Below the pieces are notes generated by a model. It was not told the origin of the DNA. It did no database searches and worked only from the letters and a program-made list of their open reading frames with translations. A DNA stretch of 64,000 nucleotides from Bosea sp. 29B (GTDB lineage: Bacteria > Pseudomonadota > Alphaproteobacteria > Rhizobiales > Beijerinckiaceae), in NCBI RefSeq assembly GCF_902506165.1, contig NZ_LR733817.1, forward strand, positions 1,100,255 through 1,164,254. The letters are read 5' to 3'. Of this stretch, positions 14,727 to 43,592 are shown piece by piece; the stretch's first letter is position 1; each line of letters opens with the position of its first letter. The translations under genes were made by a program, and so were the position numbers.

Positions 14727-16238
14727 ATGACCATTTCCTTCGACCAGATCGGCCCCGTCCGCACCCCGGGCTATCGCAATGAGTTCTCGCTGGGCCGGCC
14801 GCCCTTCGCGCAGGGCATGCAGGTCCTGATCCCGGGCCCGGTCGCTGCCGGATCGACCGTCCCGCTCGGCGTTTCGCAGCGCATTCGTGACGACCTCGAA
14901 ACCGCCTATGGCCCGGGCTCCCTGCTCGGCACCATGCTGAACTATGCTCGGCTGGCGCGGCCTTATCTCGACTTTCGGGTGCTGCCGCTCGCCGATACCG
15001 GCACCAAGGCGAAGCTCGACGTTAAGGTCGACACCCTGCCGCCTCCGGGCACCTGGCCGTTCTGGCTGTTCAGCAACAACCGGCGGCGCCAGATCACCGT
15101 GACCGCGGCGGATACCGTCAACACGGTCGCTGCCAAGATCGCCGCGGCGGTCAACCAGCGCGTCACCATCCCCGGCGATTCGAAGTCGCTGGTCGATATG
15201 GCGATCGGCACCGCCGCGACCGATACCGCGACGATCACCGCCCGCAATGGCGGCGCGATGCTGAACAACACGACATGGCTCAGCTTCAAGAGCCGCGGCG
15301 AGACCTCGCCGCTGGCCGCCTGCTGCACCCTGACCTTCACGGCCGGCACCGGCGGGCCCGACATGGCTGCCGCTCTCGCCGGCGTCGGCACCGGCTACTT
15401 CGCCTGGGTGATCTCGGCCTATCGCGATGCGACCTCGCTCACCGCGATCGACGCCTGGCTCGAAGAGCAATGGGGGCCGCTCGCCATGCGCTATGGCTGG
15501 GCTAGCGCCGGCATCATCGGCTCGCAGGCGAGTGTCGCGGCGATCGGCGACGCGATGAACGATCGCAAGCGCGTATTGCCGGCGTTGAAGAGCTCGTCGG
15601 AGCCGGAGCCGATCATGGCCGCCTGCGTCGGGGCGGAACTGGCCTTCGTCTTCGACTTCGCCCGGTCGATCACCGAGGTCCAGATCTTCGCCCGCGGGCT
15701 CACCGGCCGCGAGGTCAAGGGCCTGACCGGACCTTGGGAGAGCGACGACGTCTATTCGGAGCCGCAGCGCAACCTGCTTTATTTCGACGGTATCTCGCCG
15801 CTCGATGCCAAGGAGGGCAAGGTCTATCTGGAGCGCGTCATCACGACGTTCCAGCGCCGCGCCTCGACCGGTCTCGAGGATATCAGCTATCTCGATATCA
15901 ACGGGCCCTGTATCGACGCCTATACGGTGCAGTATCAGCGGCACTATGTCTGGAATACCCATCAGAACACGACGCTGGTCGGCGATCAGGAAGACTTCGC
16001 CGAAGGCCAGACCCGGCCGCAGGATCTGCACAAGACGATCGTCGCCTCCTACACCGATCTGAACCGCCGCGGCCGGATCGTGCAGGACGTGCAGTCCTTC
16101 GAGCAGAACCTGCGCGTCGAGCTGTCGGATGATCCGGTTCGGGCCAATGCCGAGCAGCGCATCTACCGGGCGAACCCCTTCTACATCATGGCGACGAAGT
16201 CGATCGTCGGCGAGCTCGCCCCCGGCGCGCAGGCCTGA
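14727..16238 (+). CDS. Contractile tail sheath protein, Mu gpL-like
   Basis: This protein makes the sheath that contracts to drive the tube into the cell. The 503-residue protein has the sheath layout: an N-terminal tube-contact part (DQIGPVRTPGYRNEF), inserted variable domains around residues 90-200, and the conserved C-terminal part (GLEDISYLDINGPCIDAYTV, later LNRRGRIVQDVQSFEQNLRV) that links subunits. The start follows the DUF2635 stop by 47 bases. It shows that the virion is a myophage. Confidence 0.93.
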   Translation: MTISFDQIGPVRTPGYRNEFSLGRPPFAQGMQVLIPGPVAAGSTVPLGVSQRIRDDLETAYGPGSLLGTMLNYARLARPYLDFRVLPLADTGTKAKLDVKVDTLPPPGTWPFWLFSNNRRRQITVTAADTVNTVAAKIAAAVNQRVTIPGDSKSLVDMAIGTAATDTATITARNGGAMLNNTTWLSFKSRGETSPLAACCTLTFTAGTGGPDMAAALAGVGTGYFAWVISAYRDATSLTAIDAWLEEQWGPLAMRYGWASAGIIGSQASVAAIGDAMNDRKRVLPALKSSSEPEPIMAACVGAELAFVFDFARSITEVQIFARGLTGREVKGLTGPWESDDVYSEPQRNLLYFDGISPLDAKEGKVYLERVITTFQRRASTGLEDISYLDINGPCIDAYTVQYQRHYVWNTHQNTTLVGDQEDFAEGQTRPQDLHKTIVASYTDLNRRGRIVQDVQSFEQNLRVELSDDPVRANAEQRIYRANPFYIMATKSIVGELAPGAQA

Positions 16239-16308: not shown

Positions 16309-16698
16309 ATGGCCGGCAAGGACTATGGCGACGTCGTGATTTCCGTCCTCTCCGGCCCGCTGGCCGGGCGGACGCTCTCCGCCATGGGCGAGATCAAGAT
16401 CAAGTCCACCGGCTACAAGGTTTCGGCCGAGGTCAGCAGCGACCACCAGGTCATGAACCGCGGCTTCGAGCCGCAGCCGGTGATCGTCTCCTGCGATTTC
16501 GACCGCGGCAGCATCAACTGGAATGCGCTGATCACCGCGCGGTTCGATATGACGTGGACCGAGGTCCTGGCGGGCATGACGCATTTCATGACGCAGGCCG
16601 GCTTCACCGGCGAAGCGCAGGGCTCGATGAAGGACGGCAAGATGACCGGCCTCGAGGTCTCCTGCGCCAAGGCGAATTATCGCCTGCGGAATCAGTGA
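16309..16698 (+). CDS. Tail tube protein, Mu gpM-like
   Basis: The tube is the rigid channel inside the sheath. The 129-residue protein has the short Mu-type tube length, with GYKVSAEVSSDHQVMNRGFE and FDRGSINWNALITARFD in the middle. A strong AGGAG ribosome site lies before ATG 16309. Order (sheath, tube, chaperone, tape measure) is invariant in Mu-like tails and supports the assignment. Confidence 0.88.
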   Translation: MAGKDYGDVVISVLSGPLAGRTLSAMGEIKIKSTGYKVSAEVSSDHQVMNRGFEPQPVIVSCDFDRGSINWNALITARFDMTWTEVLAGMTHFMTQAGFTGEAQGSMKDGKMTGLEVSCAKANYRLRNQ

Positions 16699-16708
16699 GG
16701 GCTAACCG

Positions 16709-17077
16709 ATGGGCTGGACCCTCAAGCTCGACCGCCAGCGCGAATGGCCGGCGAAGACCTTTGTCGACGAGATCGGCTTCAAGGATCCGACACTCTTCCT
16801 GCTGCGGCAGCTGCCGGAGATCGAGCGCATCCGCAACCTGCCGGATCGGTCGAGCCTCTACGAGACGAACTGGCAGGCGGTCTATGACTGGCTGAAGGCG
16901 CTGGTTGAAGTCGAGGCCAATTCCGGCCTGGTCGACATGCTGACCCCGGCGGAGGCCGAGCGCGCCAAGGCGGCGCTTCTCGGTTTTTTCACATCGCCGG
17001 CGGCCGAGACGGCGCCGGCGCCGCCGCCGACGACCTCCTCTTCGGCGCCAGAATCCGCGAAGACCCGGATCGAATGA
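16709..17077 (+). CDS. Tail assembly chaperone, short form (Mu gp41-like)
   Basis: The 122-residue zero-frame product. Such proteins coat the tape measure while the tube assembles and are absent from the finished tail. The helical core is WTLKLDRQREWPAKTFVDEIGF, then RIRNLPDRSSLYETNWQAVYDWLKALVE. The C-terminal 30 residues are low complexity (Ala, Pro, Ser), as in the short forms of other phages. A TTTTTTC run at 16984-16990 allows a -1 shift to a longer form, listed separately. Confidence 0.85.
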   Translation: MGWTLKLDRQREWPAKTFVDEIGFKDPTLFLLRQLPEIERIRNLPDRSSLYETNWQAVYDWLKALVEVEANSGLVDMLTPAEAERAKAALLGFFTSPAAETAPAPPPTTSSSAPESAKTRIE

Positions 17078-17148
17078 GCCTGATCGACATGACGGCGCTG
17101 CATCGACGCTGGCAGGCCTGGGCCCTGCGTCAGAACCTCGGCATCTAG
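16709..17148 (+). CDS. Tail assembly chaperone, -1 frameshift long form
   Basis: Ribosomes that slip back one base at T-TTT-TTC (16984-16990) leave the zero frame after 94 codons and continue in the -1 frame to TAG at 17146-17148, giving about 146 residues. The -1 frame is open from the slip site onwards and encodes DDLLFGARIREDPD and then LIDMTALHRRWQAWALRQN. An internal ATG at 17074 overlaps the zero-frame stop, so the tail could also be made separately as a 24-residue peptide. In many long-tailed phages the chaperone pair is made exactly this way, just before the tape measure gene. The conservation of the open -1 frame is seen here; the efficiency is not known. Confidence 0.75.
16984..16990 (+). 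promoter_or_regulatory. Canonical -1 slippery heptamer T TTT TTC
   Basis: The heptamer is in the right phase: zero-frame codons are GGT TTT TTC, so both tRNAs can re-pair after a one-base backward slip. GC-rich sequence starts about 6-8 bases downstream (16995-17030) with several GGCGGC/GCCGCC complements that can form a stimulatory stem. Confidence 0.75.
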
Positions 17149-17160
17149 GCGGAGCTTTCC

Positions 17161-19554
17161 ATGACCGTCGTCAACGAAGCCCGCGCGATCCTCACGGCCG
17201 AGGATCGCGCCTCGGCCGTGCTCGCCATGGTCGCGCGCAATTTCGATCGGCTCGACCGCGCCGCGACCCGGCTTAACGCCCAGTCGAACAATGGCCGCGC
17301 GCAGGAGCGGACGCAGGCCGGCTTGGCGCGCACCACCGCCCTGCTCGGCGGCGTGGGCTCCGCAGCCCTGCGTGCGGCCGGCCCGCTCGCCGGCGTGATC
17401 TCGGTCTATGGCGCGGGCGCGGCGCTTAGCGGCGCAAACCGGGCATTTGCGCAGAATGAGCGGGCGATGACGCGCATCGCCGTCACCGCCGATGCCTCGC
17501 GCGCCGCGCAGCAGGCGTCATGGACCGAACTGCAGCGGCTCGCCGACGACACGGCCCAGCCGGTCGACAAGGTTCGCGAGGGCTTGGATGCGCTCGTCGC
17601 CTCCGGTCGCTCGCTGCCGGAAGCGATGGCCTTCCTGCCGGCCGTGGCGAAGACGGCGCAGGCGTCCGGATCGGAAGTACAGGACATCGCCAAGACGGCG
17701 GATTCTGTCGGCGAGAGCTTCAAGCTCGCCGGCGGCGACATGCAGGCTGCCTTCGACATCATGGCGGCAGGCGGCAAGGCCGGCAAATTCGAGCTGAAGG
17801 ACATGGCCCGCTATCTGCCCAGCCTTGGCCCGGCCGCTTCGGCGATCGGCTTCGAAGGCAAGAAGGGCCTCTCCGATCTCGTCGCCATGCTGCAGGTGAT
17901 GCGCAAAGGCTCCGGCACTGCCGAAGAGGCGGTGGCGTCGATGAACAACATCCTCGCCAAGATGGAGAGCGACAAGACGACGAAGGCCTTGAAGGGGCTC
18001 GGCGTCGATGCCGAGGCGGCATTCAAGAAGGCGCGGGCCGAGGGCAAGAACTTGGTCGAGGTCTTCGAGCAGCTCGTCGACAAGGCTCTGAAGGGCGATC
18101 GATCCCGCCTCGGCGAGATTATCGACGACATGGAGTTCAAGCGCGGCGTCCAGGCGCTGATGATGTTCAAGGGCGAGTGGCAAGATCTCTCCCGCACCAT
18201 GCAGACGAGTTCGGCCGGCACGGTCGCGACGGATCTCGCCCGTGTGCTCGCTGACCGTCAGACCTCATTCGATCGGCTGTCGAATTCGGCCTCGCGTTTC
18301 GCGGACATCGTCGGTAACCGCGTCGGGCCGGCATTCAAGCGCATGGCCGATGCTGCGACGCAGGCGCTGGACGCGGCGAGCGAGGCGCTGAAGCCAGGCG
18401 AAACGGATGACGAGCGGCTCAACCGGATCGGCAATCGTCAGAAGACCCGGGCGGAGCAGGCGGTGGAGAACGCCGAACGGGCGCGCGAACGCCAGCGCAA
18501 GCTGGATGATCCGAAGTCCGAATACTACGATATCCGCGATGGTGGCTTCGCCGGGCGGGCCGCCAAGACTGCCGCTGCCCGCGAGGCCGCCCTGCGCAAG
18601 AAGTCGAGCCGGACGATCGCGGAACAGGCCGAGCTCGATCAGCTCGACGGCGGTGGCATCCGGGCCGAAGCCGGCAAGATGACCAAGAAGGTGCTCGACG
18701 ATCGCAGCAAGCCGGTCGCGGAGCGGGTCAGTTCGCATATGCACGCGCTGACCCAGCATAGGCGAGCGCGGGACGAATATGCCGAGGAGCAGGGTCTCAA
18801 GGACTATCGCGAGCGCCAGAGCCGCCGCGCCGACTTCCTTCGGCAGGAGCGGGAGCAGAACGCGAACGACAACGCTGCGCCATCCCGCAGTGCCGACGTC
18901 TATCGGGATGTCGAAGCGCTGAACCGTGAAAAGCAGCGGATCGAGCGTGCGGACGATACCGTCACGGCCGGCGATGCGCTGACTGGTACCGGCGAGGCCG
19001 GCACCCGCTTGCAGAGCGCCTTCGCCGATATGATGAAGGTCGAGCGCAGCCGCTCTCTGACGCGCCGCGGCCTCCCGACCGATGCCGACGGCGGGCGGAC
19101 GCAAACCGGCTATGACCCAACGGCTGGCCGCTCGACCGATAGCGCTGCGCGCGAACTGAAGGCGGCCGTCGAGGTCTTGCTCCGCCAGCAGACCGGCTCG
19201 GCAAAGCCCGAGCAGGTCGGCGCATTGTTTCAGCAGTTGCAGCAGGCGGCGAAGACGCTTGCGGACAAGCCGGCCTCCGGTCTCGGCGCGGACCCATTGC
19301 AGGGCAGCGGTGGCGGCGACGCGATCAAGCAGGCGCTCGATGGCATCAAGGCCGAAGTCAAGCCTGACCAGATCACGGCGAAAGCTGATGTGGACGTTAC
19401 GTCGAAGGTCGAGGTCAAAGTGGAACAGTCGCCCGACTTCTGGGCCAAGGTCGATGCGCGGATCGAGGCCAAGGCTCCCAAGAGCATGGGCGGCGTCTCG
19501 CTGCCCGGCAAGGAAGGCGGCGGCGGCGCCTCCTCGGCCGCGAGCCGCTTCTGA
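17161..19554 (+). CDS. Tail tape measure protein
   Basis: It sets tail length and is expelled ahead of the DNA. At 797 residues and about 0.15 nm per residue (a known rule), the tail would be near 120 nm. The N-terminus is helical (VNEARAILTAEDRASAVLAM). A hydrophobic stretch follows near residues 60-95 (GPLAGVISVYGAGAALSGAN), and the TMP core has PVDKVREGLDALVASGRSLP and GAASAIGFEGKKGLSDL-like repeats. Residues 420-600 are strongly charged and coiled-coil-like (RAVENAERARERQRKLDDPK type). It overlaps the next start by the usual TGATG. Confidence 0.92.
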   Translation: MTVVNEARAILTAEDRASAVLAMVARNFDRLDRAATRLNAQSNNGRAQERTQAGLARTTALLGGVGSAALRAAGPLAGVISVYGAGAALSGANRAFAQNERAMTRIAVTADASRAAQQASWTELQRLADDTAQPVDKVREGLDALVASGRSLPEAMAFLPAVAKTAQASGSEVQDIAKTADSVGESFKLAGGDMQAAFDIMAAGGKAGKFELKDMARYLPSLGPAASAIGFEGKKGLSDLVAMLQVMRKGSGTAEEAVASMNNILAKMESDKTTKALKGLGVDAEAAFKKARAEGKNLVEVFEQLVDKALKGDRSRLGEIIDDMEFKRGVQALMMFKGEWQDLSRTMQTSSAGTVATDLARVLADRQTSFDRLSNSASRFADIVGNRVGPAFKRMADAATQALDAASEALKPGETDDERLNRIGNRQKTRAEQAVENAERARERQRKLDDPKSEYYDIRDGGFAGRAAKTAAAREAALRKKSSRTIAEQAELDQLDGGGIRAEAGKMTKKVLDDRSKPVAERVSSHMHALTQHRRARDEYAEEQGLKDYRERQSRRADFLRQEREQNANDNAAPSRSADVYRDVEALNREKQRIERADDTVTAGDALTGTGEAGTRLQSAFADMMKVERSRSLTRRGLPTDADGGRTQTGYDPTAGRSTDSAARELKAAVEVLLRQQTGSAKPEQVGALFQQLQQAAKTLADKPASGLGADPLQGSGGGDAIKQALDGIKAEVKPDQITAKADVDVTSKVEVKVEQSPDFWAKVDARIEAKAPKSMGGVSLPGKEGGGGASSAASRF

Positions 19555-26246: not shown

Positions 26247-27098
26247 ATGACTGCGCAGAACTATGCGCGGGCGCTGTCGCGCGTCCTGGTCCACGAAGGC
26301 GGCTATGCGGACCATCCCAAGGATCCGGGCGGCGCCACGATGAAGGGCGTGACGCAGGGCGTCTACGACGCCTATCGCAAGCGCCGCGACGAGGCCAAGC
26401 GCTCAGTTCGCCAGATCACCGATGCCGAGCTGCAGGCCATCTATCGCCGGCAGTATTGGGACGTAGTGAAGGGCGACAGCCTGCCGGAGGGTGTCGATTA
26501 TGCCGTCTTCGACGGGGCGGTGAACTCCGGCCCGTCGCAGGCGGTGAAGTGGCTGCAGCGTGCGCTCGGATCGGTCAAGGTCGACGGCGTCATCGGCGAG
26601 GCGACCCTGGCGGCGGTCGAGGCCTATCCCGATCACGACCGACTGATCGCCCTGATGCTCGGCCGGCGCCTCGCCTTTCTTCAGGCGTTGAGGACCTGGT
26701 CGACCTTCGGGCGCGGCTGGAGCGCGCGCGTCGCGCAGGTGAAGCAGATCGGCCAGGCCTGGGCCACCGGCTCGGTCGGGCCGGATCCTGCCTTCGTCTC
26801 CGGCGGCAACGCCAAGGCGACGATCGACCAGGCGAAGCCCCTGCCGACCAAGGCCCCGGCTGATGCGACGACGGGCGCTGGCATCGGCTCAGGGGGGCTC
26901 GGCGGCGTGCTCGAGCAAGCGCGCCAGCAGCTCGATCCGCTGGCCGCGAGCTCGCAGTTCATCGGCAACATCGTCGCGGCACTGGTGATCACCGGCGTCG
27001 TGCTCACGGCGGGCGGTTTCGCCTATCGCTGGTGGGCTGCGCGCAAGGGCCAGGCTCTGGCCGACGCACTCGACCTGCCTGACGGTGTCACGGCATGA
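26247..27098 (+). CDS. Endolysin, GH108 N-acetylmuramidase with C-terminal membrane segment
   Basis: It cuts glycan strands of peptidoglycan at lysis. Residues 8-90 are the GH108 catalytic domain with the glutamate in HEGGYADHP (E17), then DPGGATMKGVTQGVYDAYRK and AIYRRQYWDVVKGDSLPEG. Residues 90-170 are a peptidoglycan-binding part (DGAVNSGPSQAVKWLQRALG, DGVIGEATLAAVEAY). Near residues 235-258 lies a hydrophobic segment (IVAALVITGVVLTAGGFAYRWW) followed by a basic end, so the protein may be held in the membrane. No signal peptide is seen at the N-terminus, so release must depend on a holin. The stop overlaps the Rz-like gene. Confidence 0.85.
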   Translation: MTAQNYARALSRVLVHEGGYADHPKDPGGATMKGVTQGVYDAYRKRRDEAKRSVRQITDAELQAIYRRQYWDVVKGDSLPEGVDYAVFDGAVNSGPSQAVKWLQRALGSVKVDGVIGEATLAAVEAYPDHDRLIALMLGRRLAFLQALRTWSTFGRGWSARVAQVKQIGQAWATGSVGPDPAFVSGGNAKATIDQAKPLPTKAPADATTGAGIGSGGLGGVLEQARQQLDPLAASSQFIGNIVAALVITGVVLTAGGFAYRWWAARKGQALADALDLPDGVTA

Positions 27099-27808: not shown

Positions 27809-27989
27809 TCGGAATTGCTGGGCGGGCCGGCGATCGCCTCACCGAAACTGCCGACCACCCTCGTTGGGCGGCTTTTCCTTATACTGGCCGCGTCAGCATT
27901 CAGGGGCGCGCAACCATTTTTTGTCCGTGGCCTCTCAGCATCGGCCAGGCTAAGACGCTGTACTCGAGCGTTCACAGGGGCCATCAGCG

Positions 27990-28675
27990 ATGCAGATCGA
28001 ATACGGGCTGCCACGATCGGATTTAAAGTCCGAGGCGAACTACTCGCCATGGTTGGCCGATGTGGCCTTCAAACCGTCTTCGCTGAGGTGAGCCAGTACA
28101 CCGCGGTCGACATGTTCCGACACTATGAGCTATGGCGACTAGCACTTCAGATGGGGCATATCGACGGGGACTTTCTGGAAGTTGGGGTCTGGACCGGAGG
28201 GACTGGAGTGCTTCTCGCTCACGCAGCGGCTCGCTGCAACGCCTCTCGTATCGTCCATCTGTGCGACACGTTTGAGGGGATCGTAAAAGCCGGTGAGCAT
28301 GACCCCTTTTACAAGGGAGGCGAGTTTTCCGACACCAGCCTAGAGGCGGTGCAGGCGCGGGTTGATCGAAACAATCTCCCTAATGTCCGCATTCACCGAG
28401 GAATGTTTCCAGACGATACGGCAAGTAAACTCGAAAGCCTGTGCTTCAGCTTGATCCACATCGACGTCGACGTTTATCAATCTGCGCGCCAGACTTTTGA
28501 ATGGGCTTGGCCAAAAGTCAGTGTCGGCGGTGCCGTTGTGTTCGATGATTACGGCTGGGTCGACTGTGCAGGTGTCATCAAGTTCGTCAACGAGGATGTC
28601 TACGGCTTATCAGACGGTGTGGTGCTGCATAATCTCAATGGGCATGCCGTCGTTATCAAGACGGGCCGAATTTGA
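27990..28675 (+). pseudogene. TylF/MycF-family methyltransferase broken by a one-base frameshift
   Basis: The family transfers a methyl group from SAM to a sugar or related hydroxyl. ATG 27990 reads MQIEYGLPRSDLKSEANYSP and on to WLADVAFK, then hits a stop at about 28092. The downstream frame resumes with TVFAEVSQYTAVDMFRHYELW and runs to 28675 with the intact SAM-binding core (DFLEVGVWTGGTGVLL, then HLCDTFEGIVKAG, FSLIHIDVDVYQSARQTFEW, VFDDYGW). The junction is the AAA at 28071-28073: one more A restores a 228-residue protein with the usual family start. Another start, ATG 28049 in the downstream frame, would give a shorter protein lacking the NYSPW segment. A sequencing error in the A run is the main alternative. 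Confidence 0.65.
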
Positions 28676-28688
28676 CATTATGTTAGGC

Positions 28689-28720
28689 AAGGCCGCAGCG
28701 TCGCGCCGCCGGCCTTTTTA
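28689..28720 (+). terminator. Intrinsic terminator after the TylF gene
   Basis: AAGGCCG (28689-28695) pairs with CGGCCTT (28710-28716) around a 14-base loop, followed by TTTTTACTTTT. It lies just after the stop at 28675 on the same strand. A second small hairpin, ACGCTGA/TCAGCGT (28732-28749), follows it. The rest of 28676-28879 holds nothing else that I can name. Confidence 0.65.
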
Positions 28721-28879
28721 CTTTTAACAGAACGCTGACATCTCAGCGTCTTCTCGCAAGCTCGGTGCTGCGCCCGAGCTCTTGTGTAAGTGGCACCGTC
28801 GGCTTGTGTCGGGAGCTATTCTTTGGAAATAGCGTCGTAGCTTCACGGTGCCGCGACCTGAACGTCCGTTACCAGTTGC

Positions 28880-30688
28880 TCATTCTCGTGAGCTGTTGCC
28901 GCCCTCTGCTGCAGGCGAAGAGCTCCTCAGGCGAGTGACCATATGAAACCCCAGTTCAGGGTTCTTGGCGGCGTCCCAATCATGCGCGCGCGGATTACCG
29001 GAGCCGCGTACGAAGTCTCGGTGGCCGAAAATGCCTTCGCAGACCTCTAGCCCATTGTGCCTGAAAACCGGTTCCCACCAGTCGCGAGGCTTGACTGTGA
29101 CATGCCAAACGGCACCGGTTGACGGATCTTCGTCGGAGAAGGTGGCGATGGAACAGACAAACACTCCGTCTGGCGCCAAGTGTTCACAGATGTTCTGCAA
29201 GAATCCAGGAATCGACGTCTCGGGGATATGCTCGAGTACCTCCCATGCCGTGATGACGTCGAACTTGGCGGGCGCTCCGTCGCTATCCTGGAAGCGATAC
29301 GGCTTCGTCGCGTCGGCAGTGAACAGATTATCGGGAATGACCCGCCAGTAGGCCTTCTGGTTGACGAGCGGAAAGTCGCTGCCCTCCAGGCCAACTGATC
29401 GATGGCCGGAGAGCAGAAAGTCCCACACCAGCCCGCCGCCAGCGCATCCAATGTCGAGGTGCCGGATCGGCGCCTTAAAGTGCTTCTCGCAGGCACGAAC
29501 AAAGCGGGGATGCCGCGTGTCATCATTGGCCGCACCTCTCGGGTGCAAATGATCCGCACTCGCGCCAGCGAGCGGGCTGTCAGTTGCAAGCCTGTACCGG
29601 CTGTCTTTCCCTACCGACATTGTTCGAGCCTGCAGAGCCGCTGCGTCCAGCAACAAATCCAGTACGCGCTGCTGGTGCAGCGCTTCGCTAACGACTGAAG
29701 CTGTCGGGGTCGGAACAGAGGGTTCTGCATCTGCCGCCGCTTTCGGCATAGATGGCCTAGATAAGACGCTCTGTATGGCGGTTACGACGTCAGCATGGCA
29801 TGCTGTCAAAGCGGCAGCGCCGTCAGGCCTCAAAGTCGCGTAGATGGCAGAATTCTCCCCAAAGAAATAAGGAAAATTACTGAGCGCTCCGCGAGCCTCT
29901 TCTCCCTTCCCTTGGCACCAATCCGCAAGTGTATTCGCCATATCGACATCGAATGCGGTCCTGAATTTCGCCTCGGTTTTTTCGGCATTGGCGATTGTGA
30001 AAAACCTCAAAAGGTCGAGCCCACAGAGTTCAAGCAATGCTCGCGCTGACGCCGGGCTGAAATAATGGAGGTGGTTCGGCCAAACTTGGTCCATGATATC
30101 CTGCCCAAAAAACTGTGCTTTGAGCACTGGGAAATTGGGCTGGGTTATATAGACGAGTCCTCCCGGCTTGAGCTTCTGGAGATGTTGTTTCAATGCGCCA
30201 GCAGGGTCGATCATATGTTCAAGTGTGTGCGCGTAACGTAGCACGTCGAGCGAAGCATCAGGGATCAGCTCGATGAACTCTTCCGGGGTAACGACTGGGA
30301 CTCCCACGCTGCGACCATACTCTGCAGCTTCTCTTGACCAGTCGACCGCGATTGCGGAGCGACAGCCTTGAGCAACCGCCTGTTCCACAAAAACTGGGTA
30401 TGAGCTGCCAATATCGGCGATGGCCAGTTCAGCAACGTCGCAACGTGCGAGATTAGCTAATTCGGCAACATGGCCGCGATAGTAGGAGGCATTATTCTTC
30501 TGGATCTCAAGCTGCTGATGGTGATCGGTGTATTCCTGGCGATAAAAGCCGGCGAGCTCTGTCTCGGAGGGTAGCTTCTCCCAGGAGAGGTGTCGGCAAT
30601 CCCTGCAGATGAGGAGGGCTCGGCCGCCCTTTTCGTTGAAGCGTGCGCGGTCTGTAGACGCGCAAATAGGGCAGGCTGTTGGGCTCAT
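28880..30688 (-). CDS. Two-domain SAM methyltransferase with N-terminal zinc ribbon
   Basis: A 602-residue protein from ATG 30688; a TTG seven codons upstream is also possible. It opens with a zinc ribbon (CPIC, then CRDC) like that in sugar C-methyltransferases. The first methyltransferase domain (about 60-270) has VAELAIADIGSSYPVFVEQA, SREAAEYGRSVGVP, DVLRYAHTLEHMIDPAGAL and LKPGGLVYITQPN. A linker follows (300-400). The second domain (about 410-600) has HLDIGCAGGGLVWDFL, FDVITAWEVLEHIPE, LAPDGVFVCSIATF. Both SAM motifs look intact, so it likely methylates two sites of a glycan. The gene directly upstream in its operon is a glycosyltransferase. GC and codon use differ from the phage genes. 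Confidence 0.8.
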   Translation of the reverse strand: MSPTACPICASTDRARFNEKGGRALLICRDCRHLSWEKLPSETELAGFYRQEYTDHHQQLEIQKNNASYYRGHVAELANLARCDVAELAIADIGSSYPVFVEQAVAQGCRSAIAVDWSREAAEYGRSVGVPVVTPEEFIELIPDASLDVLRYAHTLEHMIDPAGALKQHLQKLKPGGLVYITQPNFPVLKAQFFGQDIMDQVWPNHLHYFSPASARALLELCGLDLLRFFTIANAEKTEAKFRTAFDVDMANTLADWCQGKGEEARGALSNFPYFFGENSAIYATLRPDGAAALTACHADVVTAIQSVLSRPSMPKAAADAEPSVPTPTASVVSEALHQQRVLDLLLDAAALQARTMSVGKDSRYRLATDSPLAGASADHLHPRGAANDDTRHPRFVRACEKHFKAPIRHLDIGCAGGGLVWDFLLSGHRSVGLEGSDFPLVNQKAYWRVIPDNLFTADATKPYRFQDSDGAPAKFDVITAWEVLEHIPETSIPGFLQNICEHLAPDGVFVCSIATFSDEDPSTGAVWHVTVKPRDWWEPVFRHNGLEVCEGIFGHRDFVRGSGNPRAHDWDAAKNPELGFHMVTRLRSSSPAAEGGNSSRE

Positions 30689-30716
30689 GTGGGACACACC
30701 GTCTTTCAAATGCCGT

Positions 30717-33700
30717 TCAATCGAACCGATTGCGCCAGTTATTGTAATGGTGGAATCTAGTCACGACGCCACGTAGTGCAACGTGCTTCAGGTCAGACCT
30801 GCTTAGAACCTTTTTTGCGGCAGAGCTGGCTTCTCCGCCTTTCCGGACTGCCTTTTTAAGCTCGGTCACCCCATCCGGGAGAGCACCCATCAGCCACAAG
30901 TGACCTCGGTGGTAATGCGCCCAACCGTCATCGTAGCCATTAGCGATCGCGTCTCCATAGTGTTTCAGTACGCGTGAGCCTCCGCCGAGAACCCGATGGA
31001 GGGCCTGTGCGGCGATGTAGCTGATCTCGGCATCCTGAAGTTTCGGAACGCTTTGCAAGAGCGCCTCCGCCAGAATGGCGGCCAGGTCGTTGTTCTCGGA
31101 GTTAAGTAGGTTCCAGAGTTCGGCCCGGGCGTCCGGTTTGAAGCTCGGGCCCTCAATTTCATAGGCCTGTTCGAAAAAATCGCCGGCCTCTCGCCAAATT
31201 TGGGTGAGATGACCAACTTTGTACAGCTCCTGCCAATGTCGGAACTTGTTCGAGATGGCAGATCCTTCCTCGGGCAGGTCGTCTAGCTCGGCCCGGGGTA
31301 TCCCAAGTCTTTTGGCCAGAAAGGACTTAACTTCATCGGTCCCGCTGGTACTGACGCGGGGCACTAGGTCACGAAAATGCACGCTGGCGGGAATCTCCTC
31401 GGCCTTTAACCTGGTTGCCGAAGCTCTGTCTGCATCATAGGCCTGAAAGACTCTGCGGTAGTCATTGTTTTTGCCGAACTCACGAGCTTCCCTACGAAGC
31501 ACCGCTACGTCAATATCGCCGGCCATCAGTTGCTTCAGGCGCAGCGGGAAGCGCTCGACGTTATCCTCGATGATGCAGTGCCTCCCTCCCTCGACCGCCA
31601 GCCCGCGCATCCCGACCGTGGTCGAAATGATCGGACATCCGGCGGCCAGAGCTTCGATGCTCTTGATGCTCGACCCCGTCCCTTCATTGATTGGAATCAG
31701 CACGATCGGCTCGACCCGATAGAGTGCGGACAGTGCAGTGCTTTCAATCTTCCCGAGCGCTACGAAATTCTCGGCGTGTTGCGGCTCCATGCAGGCTCCA
31801 GCCACGACAAATAGGACCCGGTTGAGATCGGGATCGTTGGCGGCTGTTTCGGCCATCGAGCGTACGAGTGCAGCTGCGGACTTGTTTGGGCCGTAGCTGC
31901 CGCCGACGAACAGACAGACGGTCCGGCCTTCCGCCGGGAGTTCGAGAATTCGCTCGACAATGAAGCTTGCGTCCTCACGTGACAGATAATCGTGAGCGTG
32001 GGCATCGATGGGATGAGGTATAACATCTGCCTTTATGCCGACATCCGAACAGAGCTTGCGTTCATATTCCGTGGCAACCACAACGCGCGAGGCGGCGCGA
32101 AGGCCGCGAAACTCAAAGACGCGCGTGAGGTCGTGAATAACGGGAATGCCGGACGATATTTCCGAAAGGATGTCGTGCTGCGTCAGAACAACAGGCTTAC
32201 CCTGCGCCTTGAAGATTTTGCTGACCACGGGAGAAAAATAGCTGTATTCGAGATAGGCATCGTCCGCCCAGCGCGCGAGTTCTTCGCTCCGACGCTTTAT
32301 TATGGGGTCGAATAACGGCCAGATATGGTTCCATAAATGGAACACTTTGCCTGGGTGGGCCTTCCACAGCCACCGAGATAGTTGCTCAAGCCTACGGCGA
32401 AGCCAATGGTTGTCCCAGCGACCGTTCTCGAATGCTTCAAAAAGTGCTTTTTTCGAAACTTGCTTCCGGCCTTTCCCAGGAAACGCAACGCGAATCTCAT
32501 CGTAATGCTGTTCGAGGTATCGAACCAGCAGATGCAGCCGTGTAGCAGCCCCGGCGCCGCCATCGATCGCGTCACCCCATGGATAGATAACTGCGGCGCG
32601 CCGACCTGGTTTAACAGCAACGGGGAATGCTGGAGAGCCCTTGAGATGCGAGATCAGGTTTTCAGGCGTGTGGATGGTTTTCCAGTGTGCTCTGGCGACT
32701 TGCGCCTTGACGTGCAACTCGTCGTACGTATTCAACACGTCGGAGATCGCGATAGCGAGGGACGCAGCGGATCGGTCGTCCACTGCAATCCCGCCGCCAT
32801 GGAGATCGAGCTGATCGCTCATCCACGTGTCGCGTGTACAGATTGCGATCTTACCGGCCGTCATGGCTTCGAGAAAGACGCCTGATGTGCGGGAGGCATA
32901 GATGTCCACGTGGTAAGGAACCAGCACGACATCGGCATTGCCGAGCAGTTCGTAATAGGCCTCCGTGCCCATGGCCTGCTCGATCAGCGTTACGCGCTTG
33001 TCCGGTTTCTCCTTATACCGTGCGATCCGACCACGAACGTCTTCTGATGGATCATTGCATTGAAGGGTGAAGCGAAGCTGATCTGCCCAGGGCTTGCTGG
33101 CCGTTATTTCGATCGCGTCGAATATCTCGGCAAGCCCCTTTTCGCCGCGAGCATTACCCAAGCTGACGAAATGCAATCCGTCACCGGTTATTCCACTTAG
33201 CGGCGTAGCAAACTTGTCCGTGTGCGGGATCGGATAGACGGCAATCTCCAGCGCGGTCAGCATGCCGAGTTCGGAGCTGAGCCTGTGACTATCCGTGCTC
33301 AAGCGGATGCGGGTGGTTTTGGACAATCTCTCCAGCGAGCGAAATGCCTTCGTCGCGACCGTCCCATCGTAGAGGCCAGGCTGATATCGCAGCATGATTT
33401 CGAATGCTGCGCCGGACTGGCCAAAACGCTGCACCAGCGCTGCGACTCCTGCGATTTGCGCTTTTGTCAGAGTTGGAATGAAGATGATATCTTCCGGTCC
33501 CAGCGGTTGGTCCTTTAGGAACAGGATGGTCTCTGCTGCAAACTGAGAATTGGCAAATTCGAGGCTTTTAACTGAATGAAAGTCGTGATCGGGCAGCCTG
33601 TTCCAAATGTCGGCCGAGTAAATCGGACGTACGTCAATCAAGCCGTCGAATGAAGGTGTAAATGACCGGTGTCCGAGAATGACACATGACAGGCCGGCCA

Positions 33701-33785
33701 ACTTGGCGGCTTCGGATACGGAGCGATCATATTCGAGGTAGTGACCTACAAAATCCCTCAAGTTTGGGTCGAGGATGTACAGCAT
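30717..33785 (-). CDS. Large protein with two GT-B glycosyltransferase domains
   Basis: A 1022-residue protein. Domain one (about 1-385) has the GT4-like donor site RTSGVFLEAMTAGKIAICTR. Domain two (about 390-775) has YPWGDAIDGGAGAATRLHLL at its start, the CLFVGGSYGPNKSAAALVRS strand, and the donor-site EGTGSSIKSIEALAAGCPII. Residues 780-1020 are helical and may bind partners. Such proteins build surface polysaccharides or teichoate-like chains and act at the cytoplasmic face. The stop is 8 bases from the next gene's TTG, so the pair is an operon. The specificity cannot be read from the sequence. Confidence 0.8.
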   Translation of the reverse strand: MLYILDPNLRDFVGHYLEYDRSVSEAAKLAGLSCVILGHRSFTPSFDGLIDVRPIYSADIWNRLPDHDFHSVKSLEFANSQFAAETILFLKDQPLGPEDIIFIPTLTKAQIAGVAALVQRFGQSGAAFEIMLRYQPGLYDGTVATKAFRSLERLSKTTRIRLSTDSHRLSSELGMLTALEIAVYPIPHTDKFATPLSGITGDGLHFVSLGNARGEKGLAEIFDAIEITASKPWADQLRFTLQCNDPSEDVRGRIARYKEKPDKRVTLIEQAMGTEAYYELLGNADVVLVPYHVDIYASRTSGVFLEAMTAGKIAICTRDTWMSDQLDLHGGGIAVDDRSAASLAIAISDVLNTYDELHVKAQVARAHWKTIHTPENLISHLKGSPAFPVAVKPGRRAAVIYPWGDAIDGGAGAATRLHLLVRYLEQHYDEIRVAFPGKGRKQVSKKALFEAFENGRWDNHWLRRRLEQLSRWLWKAHPGKVFHLWNHIWPLFDPIIKRRSEELARWADDAYLEYSYFSPVVSKIFKAQGKPVVLTQHDILSEISSGIPVIHDLTRVFEFRGLRAASRVVVATEYERKLCSDVGIKADVIPHPIDAHAHDYLSREDASFIVERILELPAEGRTVCLFVGGSYGPNKSAAALVRSMAETAANDPDLNRVLFVVAGACMEPQHAENFVALGKIESTALSALYRVEPIVLIPINEGTGSSIKSIEALAAGCPIISTTVGMRGLAVEGGRHCIIEDNVERFPLRLKQLMAGDIDVAVLRREAREFGKNNDYRRVFQAYDADRASATRLKAEEIPASVHFRDLVPRVSTSGTDEVKSFLAKRLGIPRAELDDLPEEGSAISNKFRHWQELYKVGHLTQIWREAGDFFEQAYEIEGPSFKPDARAELWNLLNSENNDLAAILAEALLQSVPKLQDAEISYIAAQALHRVLGGGSRVLKHYGDAIANGYDDGWAHYHRGHLWLMGALPDGVTELKKAVRKGGEASSAAKKVLSRSDLKHVALRGVVTRFHHYNNWRNRFD

Positions 33786-34225
33786 TGTATCAAACGCCTA
33801 GCCAGATTGCCTGCCCGTTGCAAAAGCATTAATACGGCATTTAACACACTCTTAGGTTGGCACAAGTGGCGCGCTGACGTCTCTAGGTGCTTGGCTCATA
33901 TCGCCGAGCGGGGTTACGCGGTCGCGCGAGCTGCATTGCGGTTGATAGCAACCAAAACTCGCTGTCTGAATGAAGGAAGCGGCAGGTGAACCCCGCGACT
34001 AGGCTTTTTTAGCAAGCCGCCATCGTTCGCAGACTGAAGCTCGAGTTGCGGGGGCGCCACGGAATGGGCGCTGCCACGACGCCGTCGTGGCAGGGACCTT
34101 CTGTCGATCTAGTCAAGCGCAAGCAAGCCCGACACGGCATCTCCCTGCCGCGCGAGTACGAAAGGCAAGAGCGTTATTTCGGGCTAGCACCCAAGAAAAA
34201 TATACAATTCCGCATAAACCAAGTT
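33786..34225. other. 440-bp region without a supported gene
   Basis: It separates the glycosyltransferase start from the FkbM gene stop. Short open frames occur on the + strand but they lack ribosome sites and family resemblance. No repeats, terminator or tRNA are seen. It probably holds the promoter of the leftward operon. Confidence 0.5.
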
Positions 34226-34951
34226 TTATCGAAGGGGCAGACACAGTATATCGTCGATGCCTTCATACTGACCTCCATCGTAGAACGGAATAGCAGCTTC
34301 GCCATTCGACAATTTTACCAGATGATACTCCTTCTGGAGCTGAGAGATCATCGTTTGAAACCTATTCCAATGAGATTCCCATAATTCAAATATTATAATA
34401 GGTCTATATTCCCTGATGACCCATTCGGCCCCGGCAATAACGTTAGGCTCAAATCCTTCCACGTCGATTTTTATCAGGTTTGGCACCGTCGCGGACTGAC
34501 GGGAAAATAGATCTATCGTCGTCGTCTCCACTCTGACGGGAAGTGTTTTTCCCTCCATGCCAATCAAAGGCATCAAGGAAGATGCCACCGCTCCGACGCC
34601 CTCTCTATTATCAACGTAGAACGTAGCGAAGCCCGGCACATCAGAAACTGCCTTTTCAATTATAGTTACGTTGGGGATTCTATCGTCTGCCAATGGCTTT
34701 ATAACCGATTTGTTCGGCTCAAACGCGAAAACATGTTTCGCAACGGTCGCTAATATCCTGGTCACGTGTCCATTGTTAGCCCCAACATCATAGACGATGT
34801 CACCCGGCCTGATATGAAGGCGTGCGGCGTAATCTGCTGAATTGGCGTGCACAGGCTGGCTCCGATTGGTAGCGGGCTGACAATACCGAGATTTGGTCGA
34901 GGCGCCACTCGCTCTTTCTCTTCCGAACCAATGGCTGCTTCGGGCCAGCAT
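34226..34951 (-). CDS. FkbM-family methyltransferase
   Basis: A 241-residue protein with the full FkbM fold: SAM motif IVYDVGANNGHVTRILATVA, KHVFAFEPN, IPNVTIIEKAVSDVPGFATF, then the family signature PNLIKIDVEGFEPNVIAGAEWV and IFELW. Members O-methylate sugars or peptidyl groups. The first 30 residues are not conserved and the true start may be later. Codon use and lower GC resemble the other accessory-block genes rather than the phage late genes. Confidence 0.85.
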   Translation of the reverse strand: MLARSSHWFGRERASGASTKSRYCQPATNRSQPVHANSADYAARLHIRPGDIVYDVGANNGHVTRILATVAKHVFAFEPNKSVIKPLADDRIPNVTIIEKAVSDVPGFATFYVDNREGVGAVASSLMPLIGMEGKTLPVRVETTTIDLFSRQSATVPNLIKIDVEGFEPNVIAGAEWVIREYRPIIIFELWESHWNRFQTMISQLQKEYHLVKLSNGEAAIPFYDGGQYEGIDDILCLPLR

Positions 34952-35131
34952 TCCTTGACGCGGCGATGCAGGCCATTATGACCTCATGGCGCCCCCCGCC
35001 AGCGGCTGAGACGCTAAGGTTAAGGACCGCCTCATGTTGAAGATTTACGCTAGATCAGGCCGTGCAGCCCTTGAGGACAACTCGATAAGGTAAGAAAATT
35101 TCGCAGTTTCTCTCATGCTATTTGCTGGTCC

Positions 35132-35404
35132 ATGTTCACTGCGGACTGCTTTTTGCAGATGGATAAGTGCGCCAAATTAGGAGATGTGCGCTTGAATTGG
35201 AAAGAGTCGGATCTTGAGCTTTATAGAAGCTCTATTTTAGAGGGGTATGCAAACGCCATGTCCGAGGCACTTCTTATCGCACACGCTCATGCAGTTGTAG
35301 AAAGTGACGATATTGATTTTGGTAAAGGTTATCAGGCGGCGGCAAGAGATATAGCCTCTGCGATAGAAGCTATATTACTACAAAGGCAAAATCGTAATTC
35401 ATAG
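35132..35404 (+). CDS. Small hypothetical protein of the accessory block
   Basis: A 90-residue AT-rich frame, or 81 residues if ATG 35159 (MDKCAKLGDVRLNW) is the start. It is acidic and mainly helical (LELYRSSILEGYANAMSEAL, then GKGYQAAARDIASAIEAILL). It matches no family that I know. Neither start has a good ribosome site. The lower GC fits foreign DNA. The 249 bases between it and the oxyR stop (35405-35653) show no gene; the prophage or island end may lie there. Confidence 0.4.
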   Translation: MFTADCFLQMDKCAKLGDVRLNWKESDLELYRSSILEGYANAMSEALLIAHAHAVVESDDIDFGKGYQAAARDIASAIEAILLQRQNRNS

Positions 35405-35653
35405 ATAATCGCCATTACATGGCTGACGATAGCCGCCTCGGCTTTAGCCAGAGGCGGAGCGCGCTGCAGGTTGCTGCTGATCAATTCCGCGCTGCTCAGC
35501 ATTCTGATCAGGCCACTGATGAAGTGTAAGGGGACGGGGTTCCCACGGTGCTCGCCCGCAATCGGAAGGCGATGGGAATGCGGGGGGGCGGTATGAGTCC
35601 CTCTCCCGCTACCATCTCATCGTACAGCCCCAATCTATTCCGGGCACTTGCCG

Positions 35654-36586
35654 CTACGGCTTCGCAAGGCCGTTGCCGTGCGTCCCGCGCAGCGCGCCGG
35701 CCGATTGCCGCACCACCTCCGCGATCTCCAATAACTGCTTCGCCAGCGGGCTGGTCTTGCGCCAGACCATACCGATGGTCCGGGACGGCTCCGGCGCCTT
35801 GAAATGCGAGATCGCGACCGAGGCCGAGCGTGTCTCGACCGCTACCGCCATTTCCGGGATCAGCGTCACCCCGAGGCCCGCATCGACCATCTGCACCAGC
35901 GTCGACAACGAGCTGGCGTCGAGCAGGTCGCGCGATTGCACCGTCCGCGGCTTGGTGCTGCAGAACGACAGGGCCTGCTCGCGGAAGCAATGCCCCTCTT
36001 CCAGCAGCAGCAGCCGCATCTCGCGCAGCGCCTCGCGATCCGGCGCCGGCTTGCCCTCGTCCGCACGCGGCCGCACCAGGACGAAGCGCTCGGTGAACAG
36101 CGCCACCTCGGTCAGCGACGGCTCCGACACCGGCAGAGCGACGACCGCCATGTCGAGCCGCCCCTCGCTCAGCTCCTGCACCAGCTTCGGCGTCAGCGTC
36201 TCGCGCACATTGAGGTCGAGCTCGCCATGCAGGCGGGTGAGATCGCCGATCAGGCCGGGCAGCAGGTACGGCGCGACAGTCGGGATCACGCCGATGCGCA
36301 GCCGCGTGACCATTCCCTCCCGGGAGGCGTGCGCATAGCCTTCCAGCTCGTCGAGCGAGCGCAGGACGTCCCGGGCCCGCGCCGCGATCTCGTCGCCGAA
36401 GCGCGTCAGCCGGACCTGGCGCCTGTCCCTCTCGAACAGCCCGGCGCCGAGTTCCTCCTCCAGCGCCTTGATCTGCTGCGACAAAGCCGGCTGCGAGATC
36501 GAGCAGGCTTCGGCCGCACGGCCGAAATGGCCGTGCCGTGCCAGCGCCTCGAAATAGCGCAGCTGCTTGAAGGTCAGGTTCGTCAT
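35654..36586 (-). CDS. oxyR: OxyR-type peroxide sensor (LysR family)
   Basis: The 310-residue LysR regulator has the N-terminal helix-turn-helix (FGRAAEACSISQPALSQQIK, residues 21-40) and the redox pair in LLEEGHCFREQALSFC, where C200 and C209 correspond to the two OxyR cysteines that form a disulfide on peroxide. It is divergent from katG with 99 bases between starts, the usual arrangement, so it should activate katG and control itself. The last 20 residues are variable. Confidence 0.95.
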   Translation of the reverse strand: MTNLTFKQLRYFEALARHGHFGRAAEACSISQPALSQQIKALEEELGAGLFERDRRQVRLTRFGDEIAARARDVLRSLDELEGYAHASREGMVTRLRIGVIPTVAPYLLPGLIGDLTRLHGELDLNVRETLTPKLVQELSEGRLDMAVVALPVSEPSLTEVALFTERFVLVRPRADEGKPAPDREALREMRLLLLEEGHCFREQALSFCSTKPRTVQSRDLLDASSLSTLVQMVDAGLGVTLIPEMAVAVETRSASVAISHFKAPEPSRTIGMVWRKTSPLAKQLLEIAEVVRQSAGALRGTHGNGLAKP

Positions 36587-41079: not shown

Positions 41080-41700
41080 ATGCACCACGACCGTCGCACC
41101 ATCCTCCTCGGCCTTTCGCTTCTGGCTGCGGCCTTGCCGGAGGCCGTCTTGGCCGAGGGGAACAAGATCGACGTCGAGGCCATCCTGAACGACCCAGAAG
41201 CGCCCATCTCGGGCAACCGCAATGGCGATGTCACGATCGTCGCCTTCCTCGACTACAACTGCCCCTACTGCAAGACATCGGCTCCGGACCTCGCCCGCAT
41301 CGTCAAGGAGGACGGCAAGATCCGGCTCGTCTACAAGGACTGGCCGGTCATCGCCGAGACCTCGGTCTATGCCGCGCAGCTCGCGCTCGCCGCGACCTAT
41401 CAGGGAGCCTATGAGCGCGCGCACCATGCGCTGATGGCGACCAAGGGGCGGCTGAGCAAGGCGCAGATCTCGGCGGCGATCCAGGGCGCCGGCATCGACA
41501 TGGCGCGTCTCCAGGCCGATCTCGACACCAATGGCGACAAGATCACCGCGCTGCTGCGCCGGAACATGGCCCAGGCCGACTCGCTCGGGCTGCAGGGCAC
41601 GCCGACCTACCTGGTCGGCCCGTTCCGGACCTCGACTCTCGACTACAAGGGCTTCAAGCAGGTCGTCGCTGATGCCCGCGCCAAGCCGGCATCCCAGTGA
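41080..41700 (+). CDS. DsbA-family periplasmic thiol oxidoreductase (Com1-like)
   Basis: A 206-residue exported protein with a signal peptide (residues 1-25, RRTILLGLSLLAAALPEAVLA) and the thioredoxin-fold active site in FLDYNCPYCK (C61, C64). The cis-proline loop is GTPTYLVG near the C-terminus. Family members introduce or isomerise disulfides in the periplasm. Its 3' end overlaps the convergent tetA gene by 47 bases. The CTTAAG box upstream suggests control by the neighbouring response regulator. Confidence 0.88.
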   Translation: MHHDRRTILLGLSLLAAALPEAVLAEGNKIDVEAILNDPEAPISGNRNGDVTIVAFLDYNCPYCKTSAPDLARIVKEDGKIRLVYKDWPVIAETSVYAAQLALAATYQGAYERAHHALMATKGRLSKAQISAAIQGAGIDMARLQADLDTNGDKITALLRRNMAQADSLGLQGTPTYLVGPFRTSTLDYKGFKQVVADARAKPASQ

Positions 41701-42880
41701 GGCCGGGCGCACGGATCATGGCCGACCTGCGCAAGGCCGGCAGGCACGCCAGATAGAGCATCGCGCCGACAATCCAGACGCAGCCATTCCAGATTCCCGA
41801 CGTCGCGGCATAGAGCATCGTGAAGCCGAGTGGGCCGACGACCGAGGTCAGGTTGGTCAGACTCGCGAGGAGTCCCTGCAATCTTCCTTGCTGATCATTA
41901 CCAGCCGCCCGCGACAGCATCGACTGCAGCGCCGGCATGCCGACCCCACCGCTGGCTAGCAGGGCAAGAATCGGCCAGACCATCCATCCCTGCGTCACAA
42001 AAGCCAGCAGGAGAAAGCCTGCGGCATCCGATGCCATGCCGACAAGCAGGGTTAGGCGCTCTCCGAGCCGGCTCGAAAGCCGTCCGGTGAGGAAGGCCTG
42101 GACCAGCGCATGCATCGCGCCAAAGGCTGCTAGCGACAGGCCGACCATGGCTGTATCCCATTGGAAGCGATCTTCGCCATAGATCACCCATAGGGCTCCC
42201 GGCACCTGGCCGATCAACTGGACGAGGAAGAAGACGTAGAAGAGCGGCGCGACACTCCTCAGTACGCCTCTCTGCCGAAGCCCTGCGAGTGGCCCGGGAC
42301 ACCCCGGCCTTTCCCCGTCACTCGCATTGCGCCCGGTCTCGGCCAGGGCAAAACAGGCGAACACGCACGCCGCACCGTTGAGGAGCGCCGCCGCGATGAA
42401 GGGGGCATGGGCTACCTGCTCGCCCAACATGCCCCCGATCGCAGGTCCGGCGATGATGCCGACGCCGAAGCAGGCGCTCATATAGCCGAACCAGCGTGCG
42501 CGCTCGCTTTCTTTCGTCGTGTCGGCAATGGCGGCGGCTGCGACCGATCCGGTCGCTCCGGTGATCCCGGAAACGAGTCGGCCGATATAGAGCACCCAGA
42601 GTTCCGGCGCCGCTGCCATGATCGCGTAGTCGATGGCAGAACCGGCGAGCGAGACCAGCAGCACGGGGCGGCGGCCATAGCGGTCCGATAGTCGCCCGAG
42701 CAGTGGCGCGAAGCAGACCTGCATCAGCGCATAGAGCGACAGCAGGGCGCCGTAATGCGCAGCCACCTCTCCGGGCTGCACATGCTCACGCAGCAGAGCC
42801 GGCAGTACAGGCATCACCAGGCCAACGCCCATGGCATCGAGAATGGTGACGATCAGAGCAACGGCGAGCGACTTGTTCAT
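41654..42880 (-). CDS. tetA: Tetracycline efflux pump of the TetA major facilitator family
   Basis: A 408-residue 12-helix antiporter that exports tetracycline-Mg in exchange for protons. It follows the TetA(A)/TetA(C) pattern closely: LDAMGVGLVMPVLPALLRE, the MFS motif GRLSDRYGRRPVLL, GRLVSGITGATGSVAAAAIA, QLIGQVPGALWVIYGEDRF and GGVGMPALQSMLSR. ATG 42880 with a GGGAGC ribosome site is preferred over the longer frame at 42901, because the latter would cover an operator. The C-terminal 25 residues go beyond the normal LPALRR end and overlap the DsbA-like gene. It is divergent from tetR with two operators between. Confidence 0.9.
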   Translation of the reverse strand: MNKSLAVALIVTILDAMGVGLVMPVLPALLREHVQPGEVAAHYGALLSLYALMQVCFAPLLGRLSDRYGRRPVLLVSLAGSAIDYAIMAAAPELWVLYIGRLVSGITGATGSVAAAAIADTTKESERARWFGYMSACFGVGIIAGPAIGGMLGEQVAHAPFIAAALLNGAACVFACFALAETGRNASDGERPGCPGPLAGLRQRGVLRSVAPLFYVFFLVQLIGQVPGALWVIYGEDRFQWDTAMVGLSLAAFGAMHALVQAFLTGRLSSRLGERLTLLVGMASDAAGFLLLAFVTQGWMVWPILALLASGGVGMPALQSMLSRAAGNDQQGRLQGLLASLTNLTSVVGPLGFTMLYAATSGIWNGCVWIVGAMLYLACLPALRRSAMIRAPGLTGMPAWRGHQRRPA

Positions 42881-42901
42881 GCTGGCTCCCGGTCGAGTCA
42901 A

Positions 42902-42974: not shown

Positions 42975-43592
42975 ATGGCAAAACTAGATCGAGATATCGT
43001 CGTTCGCGCAGCGCTCGGCCTGCTGAACGAGGTCGGGGCCGACGGCCTCACCACACGTAGGCTCGCGGAACGCCTGAAGGTCCAGCAGCCGGCCCTCTAC
43101 TGGCATTTCCCCAACAAGCGCGCTTTGCTGGATACGTTGGCTGAGGCCATGCTGACCGAGAACCATACTCGCGCCATGCCGAGGCTCGGCGAGGACTGGC
43201 GCGTGTTTCTGAGTGAAAACGCCCGTAGCTTCCGCAAGGCGCTGCTCGCCTATCGCGATGGCGCGCGCATCCATGCCGGCACTCGGCCGAGTGCCCCGCA
43301 ATCCGGCGCAATCGAAGCGCAGATTCGTCTTCTCTGCGCGGGCGGCTTCGCCCCGAGGGACGCCGCCCGCGCTCTGGCTGCAATCAGCCACTATGTGGTC
43401 GGCGCCGTTATCGAAGAGCAGGCCTCGCCGACGGACATGACAGAGCGGGAAGGTGCAGAACCGGGCTCATCCGAACTGTCCATATTCCTGCAGACCCTCT
43501 TCCACGAGGTCGAGCAGGATGGGGCGGACACTGCCTTCGACTACGGCCTGGAGAATTTCATTGCCGGCCTCGAACGCCGGCTCTCAACCTAG
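42975..43592 (+). CDS. tetR: Tetracycline repressor
   Basis: The 205-residue protein is a classic TetR. Counting from the start, H64, N82, F86, H100, T103, R104, Q116 and E147 are all at the positions that bind tetracycline-Mg in TetR(B)/(D). The reading head is GLTTRRLAERLKVQQPALYWH (residues 24-44) with R28, Q38, P39, Y42 and H44 kept and residue 40 Ala rather than Thr. It represses tetA and itself through the two operators. Its stop shares CTAG with the convergent ccoS stop. Confidence 0.95.
   Translation: MAKLDRDIVVRAALGLLNEVGADGLTTRRLAERLKVQQPALYWHFPNKRALLDTLAEAMLTENHTRAMPRLGEDWRVFLSENARSFRKALLAYRDGARIHAGTRPSAPQSGAIEAQIRLLCAGGFAPRDAARALAAISHYVVGAVIEEQASPTDMTEREGAEPGSSELSIFLQTLFHEVEQDGADTAFDYGLENFIAGLERRLST

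Follow-up and report, generated by a model that had tools for sequence, protein, structure and literature searches.

The window analysed here is a stretch of 64,000 nucleotides from Bosea sp. 29B (contig NZ_LR733817.1, positions 1,100,255 to 1,164,254), and all coordinates below are counted from its first letter. Judged by eye and by partial scans, the region 548-27808 looks like a prophage, which contains genes for a DnaG-type primase, a sheath, a tube (weak match) and a tape measure protein, a gene at 19554 for a GpU-like or hub tail protein (PHROG match) and a muramidase-like gene at 26247 whose match lies below the cut-off, while three other ORFs found no match in NCBIfam. The gene order around the putative tail assembly chaperone is sheath, tube, chaperone and tape measure. 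The flanking sheath and tape measure genes were assigned by PHROG or NCBIfam, whereas the tube gene was assigned by a match below the Pfam cut-off only and matched nothing in PHROG or NCBIfam. The features relevant to this study are the following.

14727..16238, + strand, tail sheath protein gene (PHROG 165 tail sheath, E 4.2e-69; Pfam Phage_sheath_1 below cut-off)
16309..16698, + strand, tail tube protein gene (PF10618 Tail_tube, E 0.0034, 17.7 bits, cut-off 23; flanked by sheath and chaperone genes, as in Mu)
16709..17077, + strand, short tail assembly chaperone, zero frame, 122 aa (homologues; AlphaFold2 folded domain to residue 94)
16984..16990, + strand, candidate slippery heptamer T TTT TTC (same in L002, L003, L004 and L008)
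16990..17148, + strand, putative -1 extension of 52 codons plus TAG, giving a long form of 146 aa (-1 conservation against simulation)
17074..17077, + strand, ATGA overlap (zero-frame TGA at 17075-17077, -1 frame ATG at 17074)
17161..19554, + strand, tape measure protein gene (TIGR01760 tape_meas_TP901, 61.1 bits, cut-off 28.8; PHROG 34270, E 2.5e-83)

Beyond the prophage, two further observations were made in the window. Between the lysis end of the prophage and katG lie 8 kb (28001-36000) with a GC content of 54-57%, compared with 64-70% in the rest of the window; the long ORFs of this segment resemble methyl- and glycosyltransferases by eye, and it is possibly an acquired surface-modification island. 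A divergent gene pair consists of 41654-42901 (- strand), which matches the Tet(A)/Tet(B)/Tet(C) family efflux model with 570 bits (cut-off 475), and 42975-43592 (+ strand), which matches a TetR repressor model with 283 bits (cut-off 265); among the matches listed (25 of 60), the pair does not reach the cut-off of any individually named Tet class.

The heptamer T TTT TTC on the + strand is in phase with the 122-codon ORF 16709-17077, its zero-frame codons being TTT (16985-16987) and TTC (16988-16990). The open stretch of the -1 frame spans 16909-17148 and extends for 52 codons past the heptamer to the TAG at 17146-17148, which 12 bases separate from the ATG of the tape measure gene (17161). 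The original prediction had placed a perfectly phased heptamer and an open -1 frame ending just ahead of the tape measure gene at these positions, and the sequence confirms all of its coordinates. The run of six T's at the heptamer is the only one on the + strand before position 27917. Among 20 in-phase heptamers of the form XXXYYYZ in 26 phage genes (8261 codons), the chaperone site is the sole T TTT TTN, and TTT encodes only 31 of 259 phenylalanines in the 25 phage genes other than the chaperone and 7 of 94 in seven host genes. Given a GC content of 65.5% and a +1 frame that is likewise open in the window (94 codons), the open -1 frame alone means little. One could therefore ascribe the open frame to the high GC content and the heptamer to chance, particularly as only 29% of simulated overlap sequences acquired a -1 stop. 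We consider this explanation to have a negligible probability, since the heptamer, the length of the extension and the -1 sequence are all conserved in relatives, and it is this conservation that, by sequence comparison, carries the site and the -1 frame beyond chance.

The DNA of four distinct close relatives was available for this comparison, three of them viral contigs (L002, L003 and L008) and one a Bosea contig (L004). All four carry TTTTTTC in phase; after it, the zero frame continues for 28 codons and the -1 frame for exactly 52, and no earlier -1 stop, which the original prediction had named as evidence against it, occurs in any of them. The +1 frame, by contrast, is of variable length in the window, L002, L003 and L004 (37 to 94 codons). 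Across the five loci, the 28 codons of overlap show a mean identity of 0.693 for the -1 peptide and 0.589 for the zero-frame peptide. When the zero-frame amino acids were held and their codons redrawn from phage usage, a procedure that ignores shared ancestry, the expected -1 identity was 0.329 (sd 0.033, maximum 0.454), and none of 5000 simulations reached the observed value. Because the redraw ignores shared ancestry, three upstream blocks were used as controls, and these gave z values of 2.4, 1.6 and 2.9 for -1 conservation versus 11.0 in the overlap. Changes in the overlap fall on positions 1, 2 and 3 of the -1 codons in 49, 59 and 83 of 280 cases, and a weak codon periodicity is seen from the zero-frame stop onward (74/230, 66/240 and 86/240). 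The conservation of the overlap thus indicates coding in the -1 frame. Conversely, the conservation of the zero-frame peptide exceeds what follows from the -1 peptide (0.589 vs 0.384, z 5.8), suggesting that both frames may matter. With the heptamer and the 52-codon frame the same in all four close relatives and the overlap conserved in the -1 frame, the proposed frameshifted chaperone is supported.

The same alignment bears on a second explanation, in which the -1 frame encodes a separate small protein that starts at ATG 17074 and is coupled through the ATGA overlap to the preceding 122-aa gene at its end. Besides this overlap in the window, a GTG two codons further in the -1 frame of L002, L003 and L004 would suit such a start, as would the predicted 44-aa protein P0032, the sole protein found for the -1 part in the protein database searched, which covers the C-terminal part with another N-terminus. 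However, all four close relatives have CTG in place of ATG 17074, and this position is downstream of the conserved ADDLLFG..REDPDR segment, which a start there cannot produce. No earlier ATG, GTG or TTG exists in the open -1 frame of the window, L002, L003 and L004, and -1 coding constrains the overlap as well. A separate start is hence very improbable in our estimation. In L008, a GTG and a TTG are found far upstream in the open -1 frame. P0032 is encoded on a contig of 599 bases; the protein begins with nine differing residues and lacks the ADDL part, and it may stem from a rearranged phage, a chimeric contig or an alternative start, which look alike in these data.

At the protein level, the zero-frame product has 30 homologues besides itself, all of 121-123 aa with one exception of 110, and Phe93-Phe94, encoded by the heptamer codons, are invariant in 31 of 31 sequences. 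Neither Pfam, PHROG nor NCBIfam yielded a family match for the chaperone of the window; for its -1 extension, no match was obtained in Pfam and NCBIfam and a single one, with an E value of 0.26, in PHROGs. The short form was predicted by AlphaFold2 with a mean pLDDT of 83.7 and a last helix spanning residues 80-94. Past residue 100, the block averages are 57 or less, and the zero-frame tail is modelled without secondary structure. In this model the end of the folded domain coincides with the slippery site, so that a frameshift would trade a probably disordered tail for a conserved module of 52 residues. An RNA structure downstream of the site that is common to the relatives was not found, and single-sequence folds differ between them. 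The fused long form is absent from the protein database searched, in which 31 short forms were present and none of the 21 hits to the fused form exceeded 122 aa, in searches limited by length and shared words; within that database, the expectation that ordinary gene finding misses the long form holds.

To more distant relatives the survey was extended by scans with an alignment of the homologues, which covered 397 genomes of the order of the window, with matches in 2, and 397 genomes of its family, with matches in 12 (its own genome counted in), and by a scan of 397 genomes of the order with an alignment of ten distant hits (matches in 24). The identity among these ten hits is low, at 27-35% to the first. 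In total, 40 distinct loci were counted, namely the window, the four close relatives and 35 further ones; L001 and L032 (the window itself), L006 and L007 (contigs of L003 and L002, respectively), L009 (whose gene sequence equals that of L004) and L020 (place of L005) were left out as duplicates. Distinct loci are not independent ones, as L015 and L017, for example, are plainly related. T TTT TTC/T was found in phase at the corresponding place in 32 of the 40 loci (TTTTTTC in 19, TTTTTTT in 13), while the same strands, 207.8 kb in all, contain only 8 other runs of six T's, of which the window accounts for 5. At the eight remaining loci, the heptamer was chosen from the in-phase XXXYYYZ sequences within the C-terminal part, which gave GGGAAAC five times and GGGAAAT, CCCTTTG and CCCTTTA once each; those of L037 and L042 may be chance. 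L040 has two overlapping candidate sites, and the slippery site was located by eye in L041 and L019. Across the 40 loci the -1 extension measures 42-66 codons (median 52), and many extensions, not all, carry the motif (D/E)L(V/I)F. The sequence and phase of the site and its conservation were observed among the close relatives and the 40 distinct loci, as was the conservation of both frames, which the original prediction had proposed to check in homologues. L019 has an early TGA in the zero frame upstream of the site, with the slippery site and the -1 extension intact, and may reflect a decaying prophage or a sequence error.

In five loci (L031, L033, L034, L035 and L039), GGGAAAC stands immediately before the zero-frame TGA and is followed by the -1 module. 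These loci are relevant to a further explanation, namely that RNA polymerase loses or gains a base in the run of six T's and that the resulting mixed mRNA gives both proteins. A homopolymer run is indeed present at the site, and L010 and L012 possess eight T's, a length that suffices for transcriptional slippage. In the window and its four close relatives, however, the run comprises only six T's, GGGAAAC occurs at the corresponding place in the five distant loci without any long run, and the phase fits tandem slippage of tRNAs. We therefore regard slippage of the polymerase as improbable. For programmed -1 frameshifting by the ribosome, we think it moderately probable that the prophages of this order share one homologous chaperone family in which the -1 module was kept and the signal changed between T TTT TTY within the gene and G GGA AAC abutting the stop, a reading that leaves the order of the signal changes aside.

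Profile comparison joins the family of the window to the ten distant relatives at 99.3%. In 8 of these 10, PF10109 (Phage_TAC_7) was the top match at E values of 8.5e-5 to 0.087, below its cut-off of 25. A result pointing the other way came from the comparison of P2 gpE with the distant family, which gave a probability of only 6% and an E value of 0.006. It is likely, albeit not proved, from these sequence comparisons that the chaperone of the window is a member of PF10109. Regarding the extensions, one of the seven scanned among the relatives (L015) matched PF06528 (Phage_P2_GpE) with E 6.7e-5 and 22.7 bits against a cut-off of 23; in profile comparison, window-type and distant-type extensions were linked at 92.8%, and distant-type extensions and P2 E' at 79%.

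The closest known counterpart is gpE / gpE+E' of phage P2 (PF10109 and PF06528), with which the window shares the order of sheath, tube, chaperone and tape measure. The P2 record (AF063097) annotates a -1 frameshift at T TTT TTG after CGG, at the end of the chaperone domain, with an extension of 57 codons. The last base of the heptamer is G in P2 and C in the window, and the PF10109 and PF06528 models miss the protein of the window. The same gene order is found for gp41 / FS-gp41 of Mu (record AF083977), whose frameshift is noted in the record as verified; it is a -2 shift, unlike the -1 shift proposed here. The Mu fold was a weak structural match to the chaperone of the window (rank 10, E 0.49), and PF23746 (Gp41_Mu) matches the Mu chaperone but not that of the window. 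The heptamer of lambda, GGGAAAG, differs from that of the window, and we know of no evident sequence relation between the two chaperones. Lambda gpG / gpGT resembles our reading in that two chaperone products arise through a -1 frameshift; according to a review, the tape measure protein is bound by the G part and the major tail protein by the T part, which may also recruit it, and the frameshift efficiency of P2 and related phages is 2-3 fold above that of lambda (PMC5009743). In an HK97-like chaperone cluster, another study measured efficiencies of 6% and 7% for two genes (PMC3711429). For gp18/gp19 of Burkholderia phage KL1, a GGGAAAC immediately ahead of TGA is predicted, as in the five distant relatives, a site type that differs from T TTT TTC of the window (PMC3483164). 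Such sites are not universal in long-tailed phages, as Rhodobacter phage RcZahn is reported to lack clear evidence of one (PMC8601537).

Taken together, the chaperone gene of the window very probably uses a -1 programmed ribosomal frameshift to make a short and a long product, and a function like that of P2 E / E+E' is well supported by the comparisons made here. Most ribosomes would read 16709-17077 through to the 122-aa chaperone, while a minority would pause at T TTT TTC, where both phenylalanine tRNAs would move back in tandem by one base and pair anew with TTT TTT. Translation of the -1 frame up to the TAG at 17148 would then yield a fusion of 146 aa, whose first 94 residues are common to both forms. 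By analogy with lambda gpG/gpGT and P2 gpE/E+E', the tape measure protein may be a binding partner of both forms, and the tail tube subunit may be recruited by the -1 module; the slippage, its rate and these binding roles are all inferred.

The system is of a known kind, of which the gene of the window is a new and previously unlabelled example, and the understanding of tail assembly is unchanged by it. A report on frameshifting in this chaperone family was not found in the literature searched, in which subscription papers were thinly covered. Annotations of these prophages should include the 146-aa product, and the 40 natural sites form a set for relating the type of heptamer to the ratio of the two products. 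If the signal did change within one family, the shifting signal would be exchangeable while the outcome of two products persists. For the biology of these phages, the finding would extend a standard strategy of tail assembly to a lineage of prophages in which the chaperone fits none of the three family libraries scanned.
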